Assembly: GCF_008087665.1 (NCBI RefSeq)
Contig: NZ_CP042912.1
Location: forward strand, 4,650,001 to 4,714,000
Source: Mariniblastus fucicola
GTDB taxonomy: Bacteria > Planctomycetota > Planctomycetia > Pirellulales > Pirellulaceae
Direction: 5' to 3'
Length of the DNA stretch: 64,000 nt
The position numbers and the translations under genes were made by a program. The notes under the pieces were generated by a model. The model was not told where the DNA came from and searched no databases. It worked only from the letters and a program-made list of their open reading frames with translations. Of the stretch, positions 21,013 through 32,087 are shown piece by piece (the stretch's first letter is position 1; each line of letters starts with the position of its first letter).

Positions 21013-22638
21013 ATGAATTGGAAACTAGAAGAGCGCAAAAGAATTCACGGCCATTTGCTGAAACGCGACCATACTCTCACCGGTGGAATCCTATTCGGCT
21101 TAGACGGATACCTCATTGAGTTACAGGCCAGGGCGATCGAGGTAACATACTCTCCTCGCCCAATTGCTGAATCCTTTCGAATTACGGGCATGGCTGGGCC
21201 AGCGATTCAGGAAGCGAGAATGCGCATCGAGGGTGCGTTCTCAAAACTAGGCATTCAAACAACAGACGTAGAGGTGCTTATCAATTTGGCACCCGCTGAC
21301 TTGCCCAAGAGAGGAACTTGGCTCGACCTTCCACTCGCCATAATCTTACTTCAGGCATGCGGGATACTTCCGGACTTGGCAGACCAACGCGAGCAGCAGT
21401 TCGTTCTGATGGGAGAACTTGGGCTCCACGGAGAGGTACGTAGAGTTCCCGGCGCACTTTCAGTAGCTTTCGAGGCGAAACCGGGCCAATCATTAATAGT
21501 CCCAAAAGGAAACGAAAGAGAATGCGCATTGATTTTGGCCAAGAGCGGCCATGAAGGATGTTCGATATATCCCGTAGAAACGCTCGATGAAGTCATCGAG
21601 TTTTTTCACGGACGCAAGAAACTTAAGAATGCATTAAACGAAAAATTGTCTTTCGAGAATGCCATTGAAAAAGCCCCGGATTTCGGGCGCATCCGTGGTC
21701 AAGAGAAAGCGAAGCGAGCAGCGGAAATTTGCGCTGCAGGTGGTCACAACTTGTTATTGATTGGACCACCCGGCGAAGGGAAGTCACTAATTGCAAAAGC
21801 CCTTCCGGGTATCTTACCAAGATTATCGGCAAAGGAAAAAGTTGAATTAACTCGTATATACTCGGCGACTGGAAGATTGGAATCAGATGGACTTGCCGTC
21901 ACCAGACGCCCGCTGAGAGACGTGCACCATGGCACTTCCATGGCGGCGTTGATCGGAGGCGGGTCTGGTACCCCTAGCCCAGGTGAAATTACATTGGCAC
22001 ACCTTGGGGTTTTGTTCTTGGATGAACTTCCCGAATTTAGCCGAAGGTCTCTGGAGTCTTTGCGGCAACCCTTGGAGAATCGAAACATTAGCATTTCGCG
22101 AGTGGATGCCATGTTGAATTTCCCTTGTGACTTTACGTTGCTTGCGGCAATGAACCCTTGCCCCTGCGGATACTCACCAACTGACCGATGCGATTGCACA
22201 GGAAAACAAATCAAGAAGTACCAAGACAAAATCAGTGGTCCACTATGCGACCGCATTGACTTGCAGGTCGAACTGCGACCTTTGACAACTGATGAACGGT
22301 TCGCCAAGGCCAAGGAGAACCAATCTTCGAACATTCGAAAGAGAGTTGAATCGGCGAGATCGATCCAGACGGAGAGGTTTCGCAATAGCGACATTCCATT
22401 CAACGCTGCCATTCCGGGTGGTTGCATGGAAGACTATTGCGAATTCTCTCCTGTCGGCTTTGAAAAATTTAAGTCGGTCATCGAAAGTAGTGGGCTGTCA
22501 ACTCGCAACATGGACCGATTGGCAAAGGTTTCGCGTACGATCGCTGACCTCGTGGGTGAAGAGACAATTCTTGATGAACATGTAATGGAAGCATCATCGT
22601 TCGTTATTGGTGGATTGTTGCGAGAAGGACTCAAATGA
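21013..22638 (+). CDS. YifB/ComM-family Mg chelatase-like AAA+ ATPase
   Basis: 541 aa. An N-terminal Lon/S5-fold domain (LINLAPADLPKRGTWLDLPL) is followed by the AAA+ core with Walker A GPPGEGKS at about 251-258 and Walker B LFLDE near 334-338. A NPCPCGY...CDC cysteine cluster and a C-terminal Mg-chelatase-type lid (LSTRNMDRLAKVSRTIADL) complete the family. ComM is a hexameric helicase that helps branch migration of incoming DNA during natural transformation. The first ~12 residues and spacing near the N-terminus differ from standard ComM (~506 aa), so this is a divergent subfamily. It overlaps the next gene by ATGA and is AT-richer than neighbouring housekeeping genes. Confidence 0.93.
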   Translation: MNWKLEERKRIHGHLLKRDHTLTGGILFGLDGYLIELQARAIEVTYSPRPIAESFRITGMAGPAIQEARMRIEGAFSKLGIQTTDVEVLINLAPADLPKRGTWLDLPLAIILLQACGILPDLADQREQQFVLMGELGLHGEVRRVPGALSVAFEAKPGQSLIVPKGNERECALILAKSGHEGCSIYPVETLDEVIEFFHGRKKLKNALNEKLSFENAIEKAPDFGRIRGQEKAKRAAEICAAGGHNLLLIGPPGEGKSLIAKALPGILPRLSAKEKVELTRIYSATGRLESDGLAVTRRPLRDVHHGTSMAALIGGGSGTPSPGEITLAHLGVLFLDELPEFSRRSLESLRQPLENRNISISRVDAMLNFPCDFTLLAAMNPCPCGYSPTDRCDCTGKQIKKYQDKISGPLCDRIDLQVELRPLTTDERFAKAKENQSSNIRKRVESARSIQTERFRNSDIPFNAAIPGGCMEDYCEFSPVGFEKFKSVIESSGLSTRNMDRLAKVSRTIADLVGEETILDEHVMEASSFVIGGLLREGLK

Positions 22639-24158
22639 CTGCATCGGAAAGAATACACATTTGTTCGTTTTGCAACACCAAGATGAAGTATGCGACGACC
22701 AGCGAAGGGCGAAGAGCGAAATGTGGAAAATGTAACTCTGTAGTCTTCTTGCTACCCAATACGACTCGCGACATCAGGTCAGAACTTTCATCCACTTGGT
22801 GGGTAAAAGTGCCGAAAAAACTCATACTTTCAGATACCGTCGGCCCGATGTCCGACATTGACTTGTTGTCGATGCACAAAAATGGCGCACTAACGCGAAG
22901 CTGCGAGGTCAAGTCTGCGAAATTCACTGCAAACGAATGGGTCGTGTTCAACACTCAATTGTTGGCACCAGTTCAGCAGATGGCAAAAATCGTCGAAGCC
23001 GAAACTTTAAGACTCGAACACATCGCCGAAAGAAAGGCGAACACGGATAAGGAAAACAAGAATCGTCTCCGCAAGTTTATTCAACAAGCAATCTCAGACG
23101 GGATTCTTTCGTCAGACGAAAAATCAACGATTGAACAATTCGCTTCAAAGGCAAAACTTGATCTGTCCGTTGTAAACGAAATCCTGACGACAGAGGTTGA
23201 CGGACTCGTCGAATCATTGATCGATGACGCTTTGGAAGATGGCATTCTTTCACCTGACGAAGAAAAGCGAATCAACTCCTTTGCAGTCGGCTTGGAGACC
23301 AAAATCAAACTCACGTCAGAGAAGCAATTAGCACTTAAGTTAAGCCGACAAGCCTACCGGTTGAACATGACGGAACTAGCGGAGTTCCCAGAGATTGATG
23401 CATCGGTAAACTTGCAAAAAAATGAAAGGGTGCTGGCCAGGCAGGAAGTCGAGTGGAACGAAATCGTACAGCTGAAAAGGCCCAAGGGTATTTGGGTCAG
23501 CGGCGACAATTACTTGAAAAGCATTGGACGAGGATACGCGATGCTTACGTCCAAGAGAATTCTGTTCGACTCCAGTTTTGAATCGAGAAAAGCAACTCAC
23601 AGTTCGATTCAAAGAATTGAAGTCTTTGCTGACGGAATCTTTTGCAGTCGATCAACTGGCAAAAGTCTATTTTTCAAGTTTGAAATAGAGAACGAACCTG
23701 AAGGATTAGAATTTGCCTTACTTTTGAAAAGAATCCTAATCAATCTACCCGTTCAGGGTTTTCTACCAACGACTTGCCTAATTCCAGAACAGGTTGTAGA
23801 CGCTGAAGTTGTCGCGAGTCCGGAAAGCGAATCAAAAAACATCAAGTCCGTTTTCCCCAAGACAAACCCAGAGCCGAGGTTTACATTTCGTGTTGTGGGT
23901 GAACACATTGGAGACCGAAGTTACTGGATCCAAAAGCTCGCCAAGAACGAGCCGCTACAACTTGTTCGCGAGCCAACAAATAGCAATGATCGAAACGCGG
24001 TTGAGGTTCGAAACTCCTACGGCAAGAGCCTTGGATACCTGAAGAAAGACGTTGCAGCATGGTTTGCTGGCCTTATGGATCGCGGCAAAGGCTACACAGC
24101 AAACGTTCTTCGAATACGGTCAGACAACTGCCTTATTGTTGCAGTGTTCGAACAATAG
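22635..24158 (+). CDS. Zinc-ribbon, TerB-like, PH-like and HIRAN multidomain protein
   Basis: 507 aa, starting inside the stop of the ComM-like gene (ATGA), so the two are translationally coupled. A zinc ribbon uses C10, C13, C30 and C33. Two similar helical repeats (AISDGILSSDE and ALEDGILSPDE, about residues 144-222) look like a TerB/EF-hand-like unit. Residues ~261-371 resemble a bacterial PH domain (GYAMLTSKRILFDSSFE). The C-terminal ~92 residues are a HIRAN domain (VVGEHIG, LVREPTNSNDRNAVEV, GKSLGYLKKDVAAWF). HIRAN domains bind 3'-OH DNA ends at stalled forks in HLTF-type proteins. Domain calls other than zinc ribbon and HIRAN are tentative. Confidence 0.82.
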   Translation: MTASERIHICSFCNTKMKYATTSEGRRAKCGKCNSVVFLLPNTTRDIRSELSSTWWVKVPKKLILSDTVGPMSDIDLLSMHKNGALTRSCEVKSAKFTANEWVVFNTQLLAPVQQMAKIVEAETLRLEHIAERKANTDKENKNRLRKFIQQAISDGILSSDEKSTIEQFASKAKLDLSVVNEILTTEVDGLVESLIDDALEDGILSPDEEKRINSFAVGLETKIKLTSEKQLALKLSRQAYRLNMTELAEFPEIDASVNLQKNERVLARQEVEWNEIVQLKRPKGIWVSGDNYLKSIGRGYAMLTSKRILFDSSFESRKATHSSIQRIEVFADGIFCSRSTGKSLFFKFEIENEPEGLEFALLLKRILINLPVQGFLPTTCLIPEQVVDAEVVASPESESKNIKSVFPKTNPEPRFTFRVVGEHIGDRSYWIQKLAKNEPLQLVREPTNSNDRNAVEVRNSYGKSLGYLKKDVAAWFAGLMDRGKGYTANVLRIRSDNCLIVAVFEQ

Positions 24159-24290
24159 GTCAGTATCTGGGTGCCATGTACGCCTGAGTCCGGCACATTA
24201 TTTACGCAGTGCATCGGAACGCCTTGATAATCCGGCATTGCTTCCAATCGGTCATCCAAGATCGTTGGCGTCAGAACACATTCAGTTCCA

Positions 24291-25979
24291 GATTAGTGTC
24301 GATTAGTGAAGATTAGTGTTCCGCCATCACGACCGCGATCCAGGCGGACGGAGGGAACACTAATCCGCTCTAATCTGCACTAATGCACGATCGGGGCATG
24401 CGGCAGTTCGGTCCGGATTAGTGTTGATCAGTGAGGATGAGTGTTCTGACATCACGAACAAAACCCAGCGGACGGAAGGAACACTAATCCACTCTAATCT
24501 GCACTAATGCACGATCGGGACAGGCGGCAGTCCGGTCCGGATTAGTGTTGATCAGTGAAGATGAGTGGTTTGCGATCACGACCGCGATCCAGGCGGACGG
24601 AAGGAACACTAATCGACTCTAATCTACACTAATGCGCGATCGGGACATGCGGCCAACGTCCGGTTGGGATTAGTGTTGATTGTTCCGCCATCACGACCGC
24701 GATCCAGGCGGACGGAGGGAACACTAATCGACTCTAATCTGCACTAATACATCATAGCGCGTGCGGCTTTTGTTCGTTCCAAAATTAGTGTCAATTGTCA
24801 GGATCAGGTTCCCCAACCCCAAGCAGGACAAAACATGCTGAAGCAAGAAGGCTACGACTTGATGGGTGCGGCGTTTGAGGTCTACAACGTGCAAGGCTTT
24901 GGGATGGCTGAAGAGATTTATCAGCAGAGCCTTGAGATCGAACTCGGATTGCGAAACATCCCGTTCCAAAGCAAAGCTGATCTGCAAGTCACTTACAAAG
25001 AACTCCCCCTCACCACGGTCTATCGCCCAGACTTACTCGTCTTTGATGAAATCGTTGTTGAACTGAAAGCAGTGAAGGCGATCGCGGCTGAGCATGAAGC
25101 TCAACTGTTCAACTACCTGCGGATCAGCGAAAAGAAAATTGGATATCTGATCAACTACGGCGCAGCAAAGGAACTGGAGTGGAAACGGTTCGCTCTTTGA
25201 AATCGATTTGTGACGATGAGCGCGAACGATCCAGGCGGACGGAGGGAACACTAATCGACTCTAATCTGCACTAATTCCATGATGCAGACAGGCGGCAGTC
25301 CGGTGCGGGATTAGTGTTGATCAGTGAGGATGAGTGTTCCGACATCACGACAGCGATTCAGGCGGACGGAAGGAACACTAATCGACTCTAATCTGCACTA
25401 ACTCCATGATGCGGACAGGCGGCAGTACGGTGCGGGATTAGTGTTGATCAGTGAAGATTAGTGGTTTGCGATAACGATCGCGATCCTGGCAGACGGAGGG
25501 AACACTAATCGACTCTAATCTGCACTAATTCCATGATGCAGACAGGCGGCAGTCCGGTGCGGGATTAGTGTTGATCAGTGAAGATTAGTGGTTTGCGATA
25601 ACGACCGCGATCCAGGCGGAAGGAGGGAACACTAATCGACTCTAATCTGCACTAATTCCATGATGCAGACATGCGGCAGCCCGGTACGGGATTAGTGTTG
25701 ATCAGTGAAGATTAGTGGTTTGCGATCACGACCGCGATCCATGCGGACGGACGGAACACTAATCGACTCTAATCTGCACTAATTACATGGTGCGGACAGG
25801 CGGCAGTACGGCTCGGGATTAGTGTTGATCAGTGAAGATGAGTGGTTTGCGATAACGACCGCGATCCAGGCGGAAGGAGGGAACACTAATCGACTCTAAT
25901 CTGCACTAATTCCATGATGCCGACAGGCGGTTTGGGTCCGGTGCGGGATTAGTGTTGATCAGTGAAGATTAGTGTTCCC
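24291..25979 (+). repeat. Array of ten palindromic units, one carrying the GxxExxY gene
   Basis: Each unit has a left arm (GATTAGTGTTGATCAGTG...GATTAGTG), a ~35-base loop containing GATCCAGGCGGACGGA, and a right arm (AACACTAATCGACTCTAAT...CACTAAT) that is an imperfect inverse of the left. Left arms start at 24291, 24416, 24540, 24668, 24783, 25309, 25436, 25563, 25690, 25817 and 25947. Right arms start at 24356, 24480, 24605, 24720, 25247, 25374, 25501, 25628, 25755 and 25882. Intact units repeat every 124-130 bases (127 exactly in four intervals). The fifth unit has the gene 24835-25200 in place of most of its loop. An unpaired left arm ends the array. Confidence 0.9.
24835..25200 (+). CDS. 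GxxExxY protein (PDDEXK_3-like nuclease fold)
   Basis: 121 aa, AGGA seven bases before the ATG. The defining motif is G23-M-A-E26-E-I-Y29. A PD-(D/E)xK-like core follows: D66 in YRPDLLV, E76 and K78 in VVELKAV, then Q90-x3-Y94 (EAQLFNYL), the pattern of RecB-type nuclease folds, and the terminal IGYLINYG strand. The family (TIGR04256/PF13366) is small, widespread and of unproven function. It sits exactly in the loop position of one palindromic unit in a 1.7-kb array; sequence just after its stop aligns with the right half of the ordinary loops. Catalysis is unproven. Confidence 0.92.
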   Translation: MLKQEGYDLMGAAFEVYNVQGFGMAEEIYQQSLEIELGLRNIPFQSKADLQVTYKELPLTTVYRPDLLVFDEIVVELKAVKAIAAEHEAQLFNYLRISEKKIGYLINYGAAKELEWKRFAL

Positions 25980-26115
25980 AACCCAACTCGCCGTTCGACC
26001 GTCGCTACGCAATTGCCGTCACTGACACCGCTTCGCTAGCAAACTTCTGGCTGTTTGGGGGGGCGGGGATTTGCTATATGTCGGTTCGATACTACGCCTA
26101 CCGAAAGAAGTCCTC

Positions 26116-26889
26116 ATGATCGACAACTCACGTTTGTTCCTCGCCCTGATGGTCTGTTGCTGCACACTCGTTTCAACAGCCAACGCCTTCGCTCAATACA
26201 ACGGCAACGATACCAGGCAAGAGTACGTTCGATCGTCGTCGCCAACGAAAAGCGGCGGACGGGTGATCAGCGAATCGGTTGGTGGGAAGCGAATGGTGCG
26301 GATCGCCAGAGCCCCCGGGAATCCTTCGATCGATAAATCAACGCCTGATCGTAGCAGCTTTGACCGAAGCAGCTTAGACCGCGAAACTGCCGACCGACGC
26401 GACGATGGGAACCGGGAAAAGTATGACTATCCCGATCGCGACGACAAACAGGTCACCGCCTACCGACAGGCCGCAAACCAGCCTCCGCAACTGAACTTTC
26501 CACAGAACAATCGGCTGGCACAATGCAACTGCAACGGAGTTTCCGCTCCGCCACAGAACTTGCAATACCCGCCGCAGAACTTCGGCAACTACAACGGCTA
26601 TCAGGCTCCGCAACAAGCGTTTCAACCGCAAGCCGGATACGCGGCTCCAGGCTACGCCGGTGCTCAGCCTGGCTATCCGCTTCAAGCCGGAATCGGCGTG
26701 CCGCAGTTCAACCAAACCGGAGGCAACTGGTGGACTCCGTTTGTCAGCGGATCAGGTTACTACACGCCACTGCTGAACTTCCGCAACATGCCCGCCGGGA
26801 CTTATCTTGGCCAGGGAATCATCGGACAGCCGACGGCTTACGTTGACGGCCAGCCACTGCGAAACTTGCTGCGATACATCTCGCCCTAG
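26116..26889 (+). CDS. Secreted Q/P/Y/N-rich protein of unknown function
   Basis: 257 aa from the ATG at 26116, which gives a clear signal peptide (LFLALMVCCCTLVSTANAFA). The following region has repeated DRSS/DRETADRRDD segments, then a low-complexity stretch rich in Q, P, Y, N and G (QAPQQAFQPQAGYAAPGY). It ends in a more ordered C-terminus (WTPFVSGSGYYTPLLNFRN). Probably a cell-surface or periplasmic protein. The TAG stop is the first three bases of the third MITE-like element, so the element has supplied or replaced the natural 3' end. Confidence 0.75.
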   Translation: MIDNSRLFLALMVCCCTLVSTANAFAQYNGNDTRQEYVRSSSPTKSGGRVISESVGGKRMVRIARAPGNPSIDKSTPDRSSFDRSSLDRETADRRDDGNREKYDYPDRDDKQVTAYRQAANQPPQLNFPQNNRLAQCNCNGVSAPPQNLQYPPQNFGNYNGYQAPQQAFQPQAGYAAPGYAGAQPGYPLQAGIGVPQFNQTGGNWWTPFVSGSGYYTPLLNFRNMPAGTYLGQGIIGQPTAYVDGQPLRNLLRYISP

Positions 26890-27015
26890 GCGCTGTTTGA
26901 CAAATTGACTTTCATGTCGTCAACGCGGCGAAACATCAGCGGAAAGGCGTTAGCCGGTAAAAGCGCAACGGACCGGCGGCTAGCGCCGTGCCGCTCACAT
27001 TGCCCGACGCTGACT
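26887..27015 (-). repeat. MITE-like palindromic element, copy 3 (degenerate)
   Basis: Inverse orientation to copies 1 and 2. It starts TAGGCGCTGTTT, keeps the TTTCATGTCGTC segment, the GGCGTTAGCC arm, GCGCAACGGACCGGCGG in the loop and TAGCGCCGTGCCGCTCACAT, and then loses the terminal repeat (GCCCGACGCTGAC). The rest of the gap to 27422 shows no gene. Confidence 0.75.
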
Positions 27016-27422
27016 TTCGAACGCAAGCTATCGCCGCGAGTCATCGGCGCGTGTCATCCGCCAAACGCGACGACGAAAGTCCGCGGCTGATGTTCGATTC
27101 GCCCGCGCCACGCGTTCCTGATTGCGATGGACTGGCACGTCGTCCGCTTAGCCCCTTCATCTTCGGGGAAAACGCAGCATTGTGATGCCAGACCGGCCGG
27201 GAAAAGTCGCATAGCCGATCTGATTTGATCGAATCCCCATGCACCCAGCGTGGCGTTCGGGTACGATAGACCCAGATTATTGGTGCCAGAATTTTCGTAG
27301 TGCAATGTACTTTGCGGAATCGCGGATTCGTTCGGCAGTCAGTTTAAAAGAGCACCGTGCATCAGGACACTGAGCAGGCAGGGCGAGCGGCTTGCGAACC
27401 CGGGTCGCCAGGAGGGACGCGA

Positions 27423-28799
27423 ATGAAGTTTAAAGTTGCCTTGGTTGCGATCGTCGTGGTCGGTGCGATTGCAGCGTGCTTTCTGATTCCGTCCCCGAAC
27501 GAAAATTCCGTTGAGAGTCTTCGCGATGTGGTGGCGTATGTCGATCCGGAGGTCTACTACAACAGCGACATGGTGCAACGCCTGCAGAGCTCCGAAGCCG
27601 GGCAGGGGATGGCGATTCTGCCGAAGCAGGCCGAACTGGATCTGCGGTCGCAATCGCCGTCGCGTGAGCCAAACTTCATTTTTCAAGCCGGGTTTGTAGG
27701 ACCGGAAACCTGCAAGGAGTGCCACGCGGACTATTACGATGGCTTCGTCCAGACGGCTCACTATAAAACATCCGCGTTGGCGGACGGGAGTTCGATTCGC
27801 GGATCCTTCGCCGACAACGAGAACGTGCTGAACACGAAACGCAATGGATTCCGTTATCAGCTGACCAACGAAGAAGGCCAACACTTTCAAAAGCTGCTGA
27901 TCGACAAAAACGGCAGCACTTACGAACACTCGTGCCGCTTCGACATCGTGACCGGTTCCGGAAACGTCGGTCAGACCTATCTGTACTGGCAAGAGAATTC
28001 GTTGTATCAGTTGCCGATTTCGTGGCTGTCGAAGGGTGGCTGGGTGAACAGCCCCAACTACCCCGACGGACTGGCGAATTTCGCCCGACCGATTCAGGAC
28101 GGTTGCATGAGCTGCCATGCGACGATGGTTGAGTTCGATTCCGAAAGTGTGAATGTTGCGAATCCGAAGAACATGATCCTGGGGGTGACTTGTGAACGAT
28201 GCCACGGGCCGGCTGAATCGCATGTGAAGTTTCACCGCGCGAATCCTGAGGCGGCGGAATCAAAGTTCATCGTGCATCCCAACGACCTTCCGCGCGAGCG
28301 TTTGAATGACATTTGTGCTCAGTGTCATTCGGGGGAGAGCAAGACGTTGAATTCGACGTTCAACTTTCGACCCGGAGATTCGATTCACGATTACAAGAAG
28401 TTCAAGCTGAATCCCGGCGTGGTTGGCAGCGTGCATACGGCGAACCAGTATCCCCGGATGACCAAGAGCACGTGCTATACGGAGTCGGACACGATGAGTT
28501 GTGCGACGTGTCACAATCCGCATCAGGACGAGCATGGGCGGTTGGAGCTGTTTTCCAGTCGTTGCATGAAGTGTCATGAGTCGAGTGATTGCGGAAAGTT
28601 CCCCGAACATGGGGCTCGCATCGAGTCGAATTGCATTGATTGCCACATGCCGAAAAAGGATGATACGAATCTGAAGTTCGAGACCACTTCGGCTTCGATT
28701 TTCCCTGAGATCAGAGATCACTTCATTCGCATCGATGCGGACGCGACGAACAAGGTGTTGGAAGCGTGGGCGGCGGAGGGAGCCGAGGCCAGGAAGTAG
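27423..28799 (+). CDS. Seven-heme c-type cytochrome, membrane-anchored
   Basis: 458 aa from the ATG at 27423, with GGAGG eight bases upstream deciding the start. An N-terminal membrane helix (VALVAIVVVGAIAACFLI) anchors a periplasmic domain with seven CxxCH heme sites: CKECH, CMSCH, CERCH, CAQCH, CATCH, CMKCH and CIDCH. The SCHATMVE and CERCHGPAESHVKFH contexts and a late CHNPH resemble the octaheme/cytochrome c554-type families that act on nitrogen compounds or shuttle electrons. No catalytic CxxCK site is visible, so electron transfer is the safest reading. No redox partner lies nearby. Confidence 0.9.
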   Translation: MKFKVALVAIVVVGAIAACFLIPSPNENSVESLRDVVAYVDPEVYYNSDMVQRLQSSEAGQGMAILPKQAELDLRSQSPSREPNFIFQAGFVGPETCKECHADYYDGFVQTAHYKTSALADGSSIRGSFADNENVLNTKRNGFRYQLTNEEGQHFQKLLIDKNGSTYEHSCRFDIVTGSGNVGQTYLYWQENSLYQLPISWLSKGGWVNSPNYPDGLANFARPIQDGCMSCHATMVEFDSESVNVANPKNMILGVTCERCHGPAESHVKFHRANPEAAESKFIVHPNDLPRERLNDICAQCHSGESKTLNSTFNFRPGDSIHDYKKFKLNPGVVGSVHTANQYPRMTKSTCYTESDTMSCATCHNPHQDEHGRLELFSSRCMKCHESSDCGKFPEHGARIESNCIDCHMPKKDDTNLKFETTSASIFPEIRDHFIRIDADATNKVLEAWAAEGAEARK

Positions 28800-28845
28800 G
28801 CACGACGCGTGGTTGCTGCAGTCGCGATAGGTGCATTTGGACGTT

Positions 28846-28900
28846 GGTAGTACCGGCTTTAGCCGGAAGACGTGTGGTTTCCGCCTGAAGGCAGGACTAC
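28846..28900. repeat. Dispersed palindromic repeat, copy C
   Basis: TACCGGCTTTAGCCGGAAG and TTTCCGCCTGAAGGCAGGACTAC. It shares both halves with 17956-17997 and 19467-19517. It begins about 45 bases after the cytochrome gene and could form a stem in its transcript. Confidence 0.6.
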
Positions 28901-29033
28901 GAACGATGGGTTCGAATGCAATGGACGCCGGGTGAGTGAGCCAACGGGCTCGCGGACGTTGCCGCAGGGACGGACGTGTGGTGAATCATTCGGTGGCGTA
29001 TGTGGAAGTTGCGGACGTGTGGTGAATCTCTCG

Positions 29034-31644: not shown

Positions 31645-32087
31645 CGGTTTTCGGTTTTAGGTGTGTGGTTAAAGGCGGCAGAGTCCGGATAATGGCGTAT
31701 CGATCGTTTGAAGATTTGGATGTTTGGAAACGAGCCTGCCAACTTGCCGTATCGGTCTATGAACAGACTCGCAATTGGCAGGACTGGGGATTGAAAAGCC
31801 AGCTGGAGCGTGCGTCTGTTTCCATCGCATCGAATATTGCCGAAGGAAGCGAACGTGGCGGCAAGGACTTCATTCGTTTCTTACGCATTGCAGCAGGCTC
31901 TGCGGCGGAAGCTCGTACACAAATTTACATTGCGAAGCGAATTGGACTAATCAATGAAGAAGATTTCGAATCGCTGATCCATGAGTCAAAAGGTATCTCG
32001 AAGATGCTCACCGGCTTGATAAAGTCGCTATCATAGATCGCGTCGGACCATACACACCGAAAACCGTAAACCGTAAACCGAAAACCG
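31645..32087 (+). repeat. Inverted repeats framing the four-helix-bundle gene
   Basis: The left copy (31645-31670: CGGTTTTCGGTTTTAGGTGTG) and the right copy (32047-32087: TACACACCGAAAACCGTAAA with further CCGTAAACCGAAAACC units) are inverse to each other. They enclose one gene of 114 codons. The right copy runs up to the ATG of the ABC permease gene and occupies its ribosome-binding region. Confidence 0.7.
31692..32036 (+). CDS. Four-helix-bundle protein (23S rRNA intervening-sequence protein family)
   Basis: 114 aa from the ATG at 31692. The family (PF05635/TIGR02436) is recognised from FEDLDVWKRACQLAVSVYE, LKSQLERASVSIASNIAEGS, the ERGGKDFIRFLRIAAGSAAE block and the final helix. Proteins of this fold are encoded in 23S rRNA intervening sequences, and the Avd proteins of diversity-generating retroelements share it; many are free-standing with unknown roles. 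Here there is no rRNA gene and no reverse transcriptase. The gene is enclosed by inverted repeats of a family that also occurs in the imuB region. Probably nucleic-acid binding, by family only. Confidence 0.92.
   Translation: MAYRSFEDLDVWKRACQLAVSVYEQTRNWQDWGLKSQLERASVSIASNIAEGSERGGKDFIRFLRIAAGSAAEARTQIYIAKRIGLINEEDFESLIHESKGISKMLTGLIKSLS

Follow-up and report, generated by a model that had tools for sequence, protein, structure and literature searches.

A predicted minimal nuclease of the GxxExxY family and its putative cognate iteron palindromes in Mariniblastus fucicola

The window, a stretch of 64,000 nucleotides from Mariniblastus fucicola (a single contig of 6.57 Mb, 95% complete), contains at 24291-25979 an array with eleven L arms and ten R arms, in which each arm is made of three CACTAAT iterons at a spacing of ~10 bp. 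The number of arms, their spacing and the position of a gene among them, as given in a first-pass annotation, were borne out by the sequence itself, by repeat finding (Tandem Repeats Finder scores of 623, 285 and 1224) and by pattern search. The L arm starts follow one another at distances of 125, 124, 128, 115, 526 (across the gene), four times 127, and 130. Genome-wide, the degenerate arm pattern with at most three mismatches matched 22 places, and the reversed control matched none.

The array opens with an orphan L arm on the reverse strand (24292-24318), an exact pattern match with three ATTAGTG iterons whose partner is missing. Palindrome 1 (24354-24447; R 24358-24384, loop, L 24417-24443) and palindrome 2 (24478-24571; R 24482-24508, L 24541-24567) follow, and then come the two units whose L arms are degenerate and were judged by eye, palindrome 3 (24603-24686; R 24607-24633, L 24669-24686, truncated) and palindrome 4 (24718-24812; R 24722-24748, L 24784-24807). 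The gene occupies 24835-25200 on the forward strand and encodes 121 aa; its 3′ flank (25201-25244, same strand) is common to the spacers between ordinary palindromes. The remaining units are palindromes 5 (25245-25340; R 25249-25275, L 25310-25336), 6 (25372-25467; R 25376-25402, L 25437-25463), 7 (25499-25594; R 25503-25529, L 25564-25590), 8 (25626-25721; R 25630-25656, L 25691-25717), 9 (25753-25848; R 25757-25783, L 25818-25844) and 10 (25880-25979; R 25884-25910, L 25948-25974), the last of which forms the right end of the array.

Outside the window the usual palindrome has three CACTAAT words, a loop and three ATTAGTG words, and is bounded on the outside by GGAAC and GTTCC; a solo palindrome of that form lies at 3526883 in the same genome. 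We scored the phase of neighbouring arms no more than 130 bp apart at 40 loci in 13 genomes, taken from pattern hits of which many had already been seen as pairs, so that the sample is biased: 37 pairs were R-s-L, two had the opposite phase (L220 and L223, the arm of L223 being weak) and two were same-direction neighbours (RR), with no pair in L231, L312 or L325. Since arms elsewhere pair R-s-L, the window gene sits between the complete palindromes 4 and 5. It had first been placed in the loop of a fifth unit, a phase that is half a unit off, and gene-in-loop is ruled out for the window by the 37 pairs against 2. The likeness between the DNA after the stop codon and the ordinary spacers stood up to shuffling: among the eight short spacers with both flanking arms intact, seven scored above all 500 shuffles and one was tied. 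An echo of the sequence after the left arm behind the last arm (GTTCCCAACCC / GTTCCC(C)AACCC) had also been proposed, and we discarded it as evidence, as its score of 8 lies within the shuffles (95% of them up to 9, best 12). Among 294 genomes of the phylum, the window's own was the only one to contain the exact double word CACTAATCNNCACTAATC. The array fits growth from a gene-bearing ancestor by tandem duplication, with the direction left unproven.

Two other repeats were seen in the window. The stretch at 26886-27001 is a ~115-bp dispersed repeat that recurs at least nine more times in the genome, at 86-89% identity. The short palindromic stretch at 28843-28908 (GTAGTACCGGCTTTAGCCGGAAG...) has matches in many same-genus genomes and is presumably a GTAG-type REP.

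The identification of the gene product as a GxxExxY protein was confirmed by TIGR04256 (E 4.6e-37, 126.9 bits, cut-off 35) and PF13366 (E 1.5e-37, 128.9 bits, cut-off 22), the only matches in these profile scans; an HUH/Y1 tyrosine transposase was absent from them, and a sequence search for solved relatives gave nothing significant. The AlphaFold2 model, built with 45 sequences, reached a pLDDT of 96.5 and a pTM of 0.89. At E 0.001 or better, Foldseek matched it only to four chains of 4ic1 (entry title SSO0001; E 3.6e-5, TM 0.60), which we take to be a Cas4 protein, and the next match was lambda exonuclease (6m9k, E 1.4e-3). The best PADLOC match was Cas4 at a weak E of 0.0046. The window protein has the active-site residues D66, E76, K78 and Q90, which are kept in 178, 173, 180 and 175 of 181 aligned proteins, respectively. 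Cas4 and lambda exonuclease are thus its nearest solved folds and share its D...ExK...QxxxY residues, but GxxExxY is about half their size and no CRISPR or recombination partner was noted alongside it, the three neighbouring genes scanned including no cas gene. From these comparisons we predict that the window protein is a minimal PD-(D/E)xK nuclease, similar to Cas4 and lambda exonuclease, whose active site is conserved. We know of no tested function for the GxxExxY family.

Inverted arms of this kind accompany the family at large. Our motif-free score, with a maximum of 42 and a threshold of 37, looks for three 7-mers at 8-11 bp spacing and an inverted partner no more than 250 bp away. It reached the threshold at 117 of 154 GxxExxY loci, mostly from PVC bacteria, compared with 11 of 340 pairs of control windows taken from these loci. 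Five of these control windows hold arms of the same grammar, and six are low-complexity or GC-rich palindromes. The latter indicate a small false rate, as a chance or low-complexity artefact would produce; with control rates of 1-3% against 50-96% at genes, that explanation is refuted by the controls and its probability is negligible. GxxExxY genes without arms, which the first-pass annotation had named as evidence against its reading, were encountered in part: 37 of the 154 loci fell below the threshold, including L100-L104, which have the weakest family scores fetched (74-95 bits). The idea that long GxxExxY ORFs lack arms was dropped, as L042 (280 aa, stop to stop) has perfect arms. Simple inverted repeats across the gene scored at least 14 at 80 of 149 loci, compared with 2 of 254 controls. 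Of 247 Bacteroidota genomes sampled, 120 have the family above cut-off, and in this phylum triple-iteron arms were found at 15 of the 30 best-scoring loci (not a random draw) and at 1 of 60 controls. The window genome itself carries four other GxxExxY genes, each with inverted iterated repeats and each with a different word, one of them (L004) scoring 35 and hence under the threshold. Some places were fetched twice among the 154 loci (L056/L116, L064/L106 and L055/L143), leaving 115 labelled tree rows. One arm on each side pointing at the gene was seen at 41 of these 115 loci, which makes gene-in-loop the commonest layout; a full palindrome on each side, the kind found in the window, was seen at 18, and the rest are partial.

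The iteron words follow a common grammar. CRCNRA was fitted by 113 of 117 consensus words and by 7.6% of random repeats; the strand and the CRC..A register were picked for best fit, a freedom that the random repeats shared. The full grammar is CRCNRAK, with letters 2, 4, 5 and 7 variable. We mapped the core (letters 4-7) on a protein tree of 132 columns, in which many forks are unresolved and from which the long-branch rows L172 and L180 were removed before shuffling. The core changes 30 times on this tree (200 shuffles: mean 60.8, minimum 55), and 26 times among 58 relatives that were not picked by likeness to the window protein (shuffles: mean 40.3, minimum 35). Letter 2 tracks the tree weakly in these 58, with 14 changes against a shuffled mean of 17.7 and minimum of 12. 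Proteins of different genomes share the core in 13 of 14 pairs at 70% identity or more and in 27 of 1005 pairs below 40%, and same-genome pairs below 40% identity share it in 0 of 24. At 75 loci from four phyla (L106-L180) the gene product is closely related to the window protein, and 72 of them have a CRCTAAT triple within 250 bp, compared with 2 of 64 controls; the three missing loci score 17 of 21, with the cut at 18. Crossing between phyla amounts to 7 changes, where the minimum is 3 and shuffles give at least 21, so transfer is likely but rare. The first-pass claim that gene and palindromes belong together is upheld by both the arm scores and the CRCTAAT counts, and these sequence comparisons give good support to a cognate pairing between the GxxExxY nuclease and its iteron palindromes.

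The two arms of a pair agree at 2001 of 2142 iteron cells (93%) but at 273 of 530 spacer cells (52%, chance 26%), a contrast somewhat inflated by the use of iterons, and not spacers, for detection; perfect arm pairs numbered 8 of 102 with equal spacing. The higher agreement of the iterons favours recognition of the words by a protein over selection for a stem. Single units do fold well as RNA, a check suggested in the first-pass annotation, with z of -3.8 (palindrome 7), -4.4 and -11.4, and this, together with spacer pairing above chance, leaves room for a hairpin model. The arms might then act as RNA: gene and arms would be transcribed and the arms would pair and be cut by RNase III, as in 23S rRNA intervening sequences, the protein having its role elsewhere. 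In Coxiella the ends of the intervening sequence form a stem of 28 bp that RNase III cuts, and intervening sequences resemble the GxxExxY loci in having one small ORF between inverted ends and a patchy distribution (PMC4990558). They differ in that the S23 protein is unrelated to GxxExxY, the window array lies outside rRNA, and the GxxExxY arms are iterons with poorly paired spacers. An Rfam search of 23900-26300 at E ≤ 1 found no rRNA; its single match was a weak one to a snoRNA. Stem selection would keep spacers and iterons alike, which the agreement of 52% against 93% and the rarity of perfect pairs speak against, and a stem has no need of a 7-bp word repeated three times per arm and tracking the protein, so we regard action as RNA as distinctly improbable.

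The S23 family (TIGR02436, a four-helix bundle) was found in 34 of 60 relatives' genomes and also in the window, where its gene at 31722-32033 has inverted iterated arms of its own (31645-31670 and 32053-32087, CGGTTTT / AAAACCG type). Inverted repeats scored at least 14 at 23 of 29 TIGR02436 loci and at 0 of 50 controls, so that arms of another style accompany an S23-type gene in the same genomes, as the RNA explanation would have it. The GxxExxY triple score of at least 37 was reached at just 3 of the 30 TIGR02436 loci, which were the best-scoring and not a random draw; the 7-nt period of the TIGR02436 arms was seen by eye, the test covering the inverted repeat alone. These results indicate that the architecture is not unique to GxxExxY, and that the CRCNRAK grammar is specific to it in this comparison.

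Palindromes of the window type also occur away from the gene. CRCTAATNNN x 3, with two mismatches tolerated, was found in 22 of 60 relatives, and the reversed control in two genomes with one match each; the counts for G012 and G027 take in CACGAAT-like sites. The GxxExxY family is present in 35 of the 60 relatives and absent from 14 of the 28 same-genus genomes, and 13 of those 14 have no site. Five of the 28 have a window-type gene (one just a 19-codon piece) and hold 4 to 46 sites, compared with 3 of the 23 others with at least four sites; the chance of this split is ~6 in 10,000 with kinship ignored, and the genomes are related. Without a window-type gene, G014, G037, G055, G058 and G042 have 14, 21, 19, 11 and 10 triples, respectively. 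The window's own genome has a second CACTAAT array (L028:2041-2795; 1944041-1944757) with a 175-bp period, which adjoins a transposase-like ORF and includes no GxxExxY gene, and a CACTAAT palindrome (L029:2235-3600) whose left arm occurs twice together with the ~26 bp that precede it, the two copies being separated by a 246-aa ORF. At L229 (G037:C16:18713-18811) an arm has grown to seven consecutive ATTAGTG words at 10-bp spacing, and L312 (G004:C64) shows a direct duplication, in which two R arms at a distance of 221 bp each have similar DNA before and after them, with no F arm detected. The transposase-like ORF at L028 and the genomes with many palindromes and no gene could indicate that the palindromes are part of some other mobile element, next to which GxxExxY is a passenger or inserts, but this is very improbable given that the word follows the protein and is present beside nearly all of its close relatives in four phyla.

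In the relative G004 (L231), the loop of a palindrome holds the first 19 codons of a window-type gene; by its sequence this palindrome is an internal-deletion derivative, and such derivatives evidently do arise. The first-pass view of the gene-less units as internal-deletion derivatives stands to that extent; in the window the gene lies between palindromes and not in a loop. Solo palindromes of six genomes have arms 78-89% identical, with loops and flanks at the shuffled or unrelated level, and hence were not recently copied as units. The six copies compared in G055 are alike in their loops and flanks as well. This genome, from which the window-type gene is absent, carries at L212-L219 eight palindromes of ~118 nt that resemble one another and have related flanks.

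We found no clean empty site or target duplication in 28 same-genus genomes queried with window DNA 21013-29000, or in 13 genomes of the genus of L117, judged from the match table alone. The spread of units by the nuclease, as first proposed, drew no support from empty sites or from the solo palindromes, which share arms and not loops or flanks. The sole partly syntenic genome, G016, has the right-flank ORF with a matching promoter stretch, a different left neighbour and no array; at this one partly syntenic locus read, no array without the gene was seen, and so the earlier reading was not contradicted there. GxxExxY was found in 0 of 50,697 phage records, 8 of 72,556 plasmids and one locus of the viral contigs, and as far as these sets go the family is not phage-borne.

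Conserved arms beside unconserved loops and flanks are what would be expected of binding sites under selection. The iterons may then be operators or working sites of a nuclease that serves the host in autoregulation, repair or defence, like Chi for RecBCD, in which case the gene would not be selfish and the distant sites would be kept by host selection. The closeness of arms and gene agrees with this, as does the fold, which is that of Cas4 and lambda exonuclease and of a housekeeping or defence type, the Cas4 profile match being weak. A host-serving role is harder to reconcile with the patchy spread of the family (35/60 relatives, none in 14/28 same-genus genomes), with several gene copies per genome that differ in their words, and with the tandem array, the gene fragment in a palindrome and the dispersed similar copies in G055, and we consider it rather unlikely.

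Of the systems described so far, REPIN-RAYT (REPtron, TIRtron) and the 23S rRNA intervening sequence come nearest. REPIN-RAYT is alike in that a small nuclease gene is bordered by palindromes of its own class, solo palindromic doublets lie elsewhere, and one genome may have several classes with an enzyme for each (PMC3116915, PMC3733652). Tandem REP arrays also occur in such systems (PMC3116915), and the palindrome class tracks the enzyme clade as the GxxExxY word does. The differences are that the GxxExxY enzyme is of the PD-(D/E)xK type whereas RAYT is an HUH tyrosine transposase, and that a GxxExxY arm is a direct series of three 7-bp words spaced 8-11 bp apart whereas a REP is GTAG-tagged and 20-40 bp long. 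A GTAG or CGTC tag is absent from the window arms, which start with GGAAC and iterate CACTAAT. Terminal inverted repeats around one ORF, as at the 41 gene-in-loop loci, also recall insertion sequences. No literature linking GxxExxY to repeats was found in open-access PubMed Central; the term appeared in two papers, in one of which it is just the name of a neighbouring gene.

The best reading of the data, and one that we hold with slightly more belief than doubt, is a cognate nuclease-iteron pair that would behave as a selfish element in the manner of REPIN-RAYT, its enzyme being unrelated to RAYT. The window array would consist of local, tandemly amplified cognate sites of the GxxExxY protein that they surround. 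The 121-aa Cas4-like nuclease would bind the iterons of its own arms and cut or resect at these sites, perhaps where a hairpin has arisen in the course of replication, and the palindromes would be copied, multiplied and moved as the cuts are repaired. Gene and arms would together be a minimal selfish element, and the gene-less palindromes non-autonomous derivatives still recognisable by the protein, like REPINs for RAYTs; in the window this would have left a single surviving copy of the gene among ten palindromes. The most likely mechanism, at a little above an even chance, is a moving selfish element that the GxxExxY nuclease drives, with binding, cutting and movement inferred from sequence patterns. 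More tentatively, and with somewhat more doubt than belief, we propose that GxxExxY proteins are very small self-addressed nucleases, each recognising its own CRCNRAK word three times per arm and propagating its palindromes, and that they constitute an HUH-independent selfish class; the S23 four-helix bundle proteins may be a second such class, with iterated arms in a style of their own.

If this is true, an HUH-independent selfish class would be present in about half of the Bacteroidota sampled and in more than half of the planctomycete relatives, and the REPIN-RAYT way of life would have been reached independently with an unrelated enzyme. A widespread family without a tested function would gain a concrete, testable role, and a set of short palindromic repeats that are frequent in the genomes of PVC bacteria and Bacteroidota would get an owner. 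The link from word to protein would amount to a naturally occurring recognition code, carried by a nuclease of 120 residues. GxxExxY and its iterons are possibly an overlooked enzyme-repeat pair in several bacterial phyla, and one that may spread through genomes.
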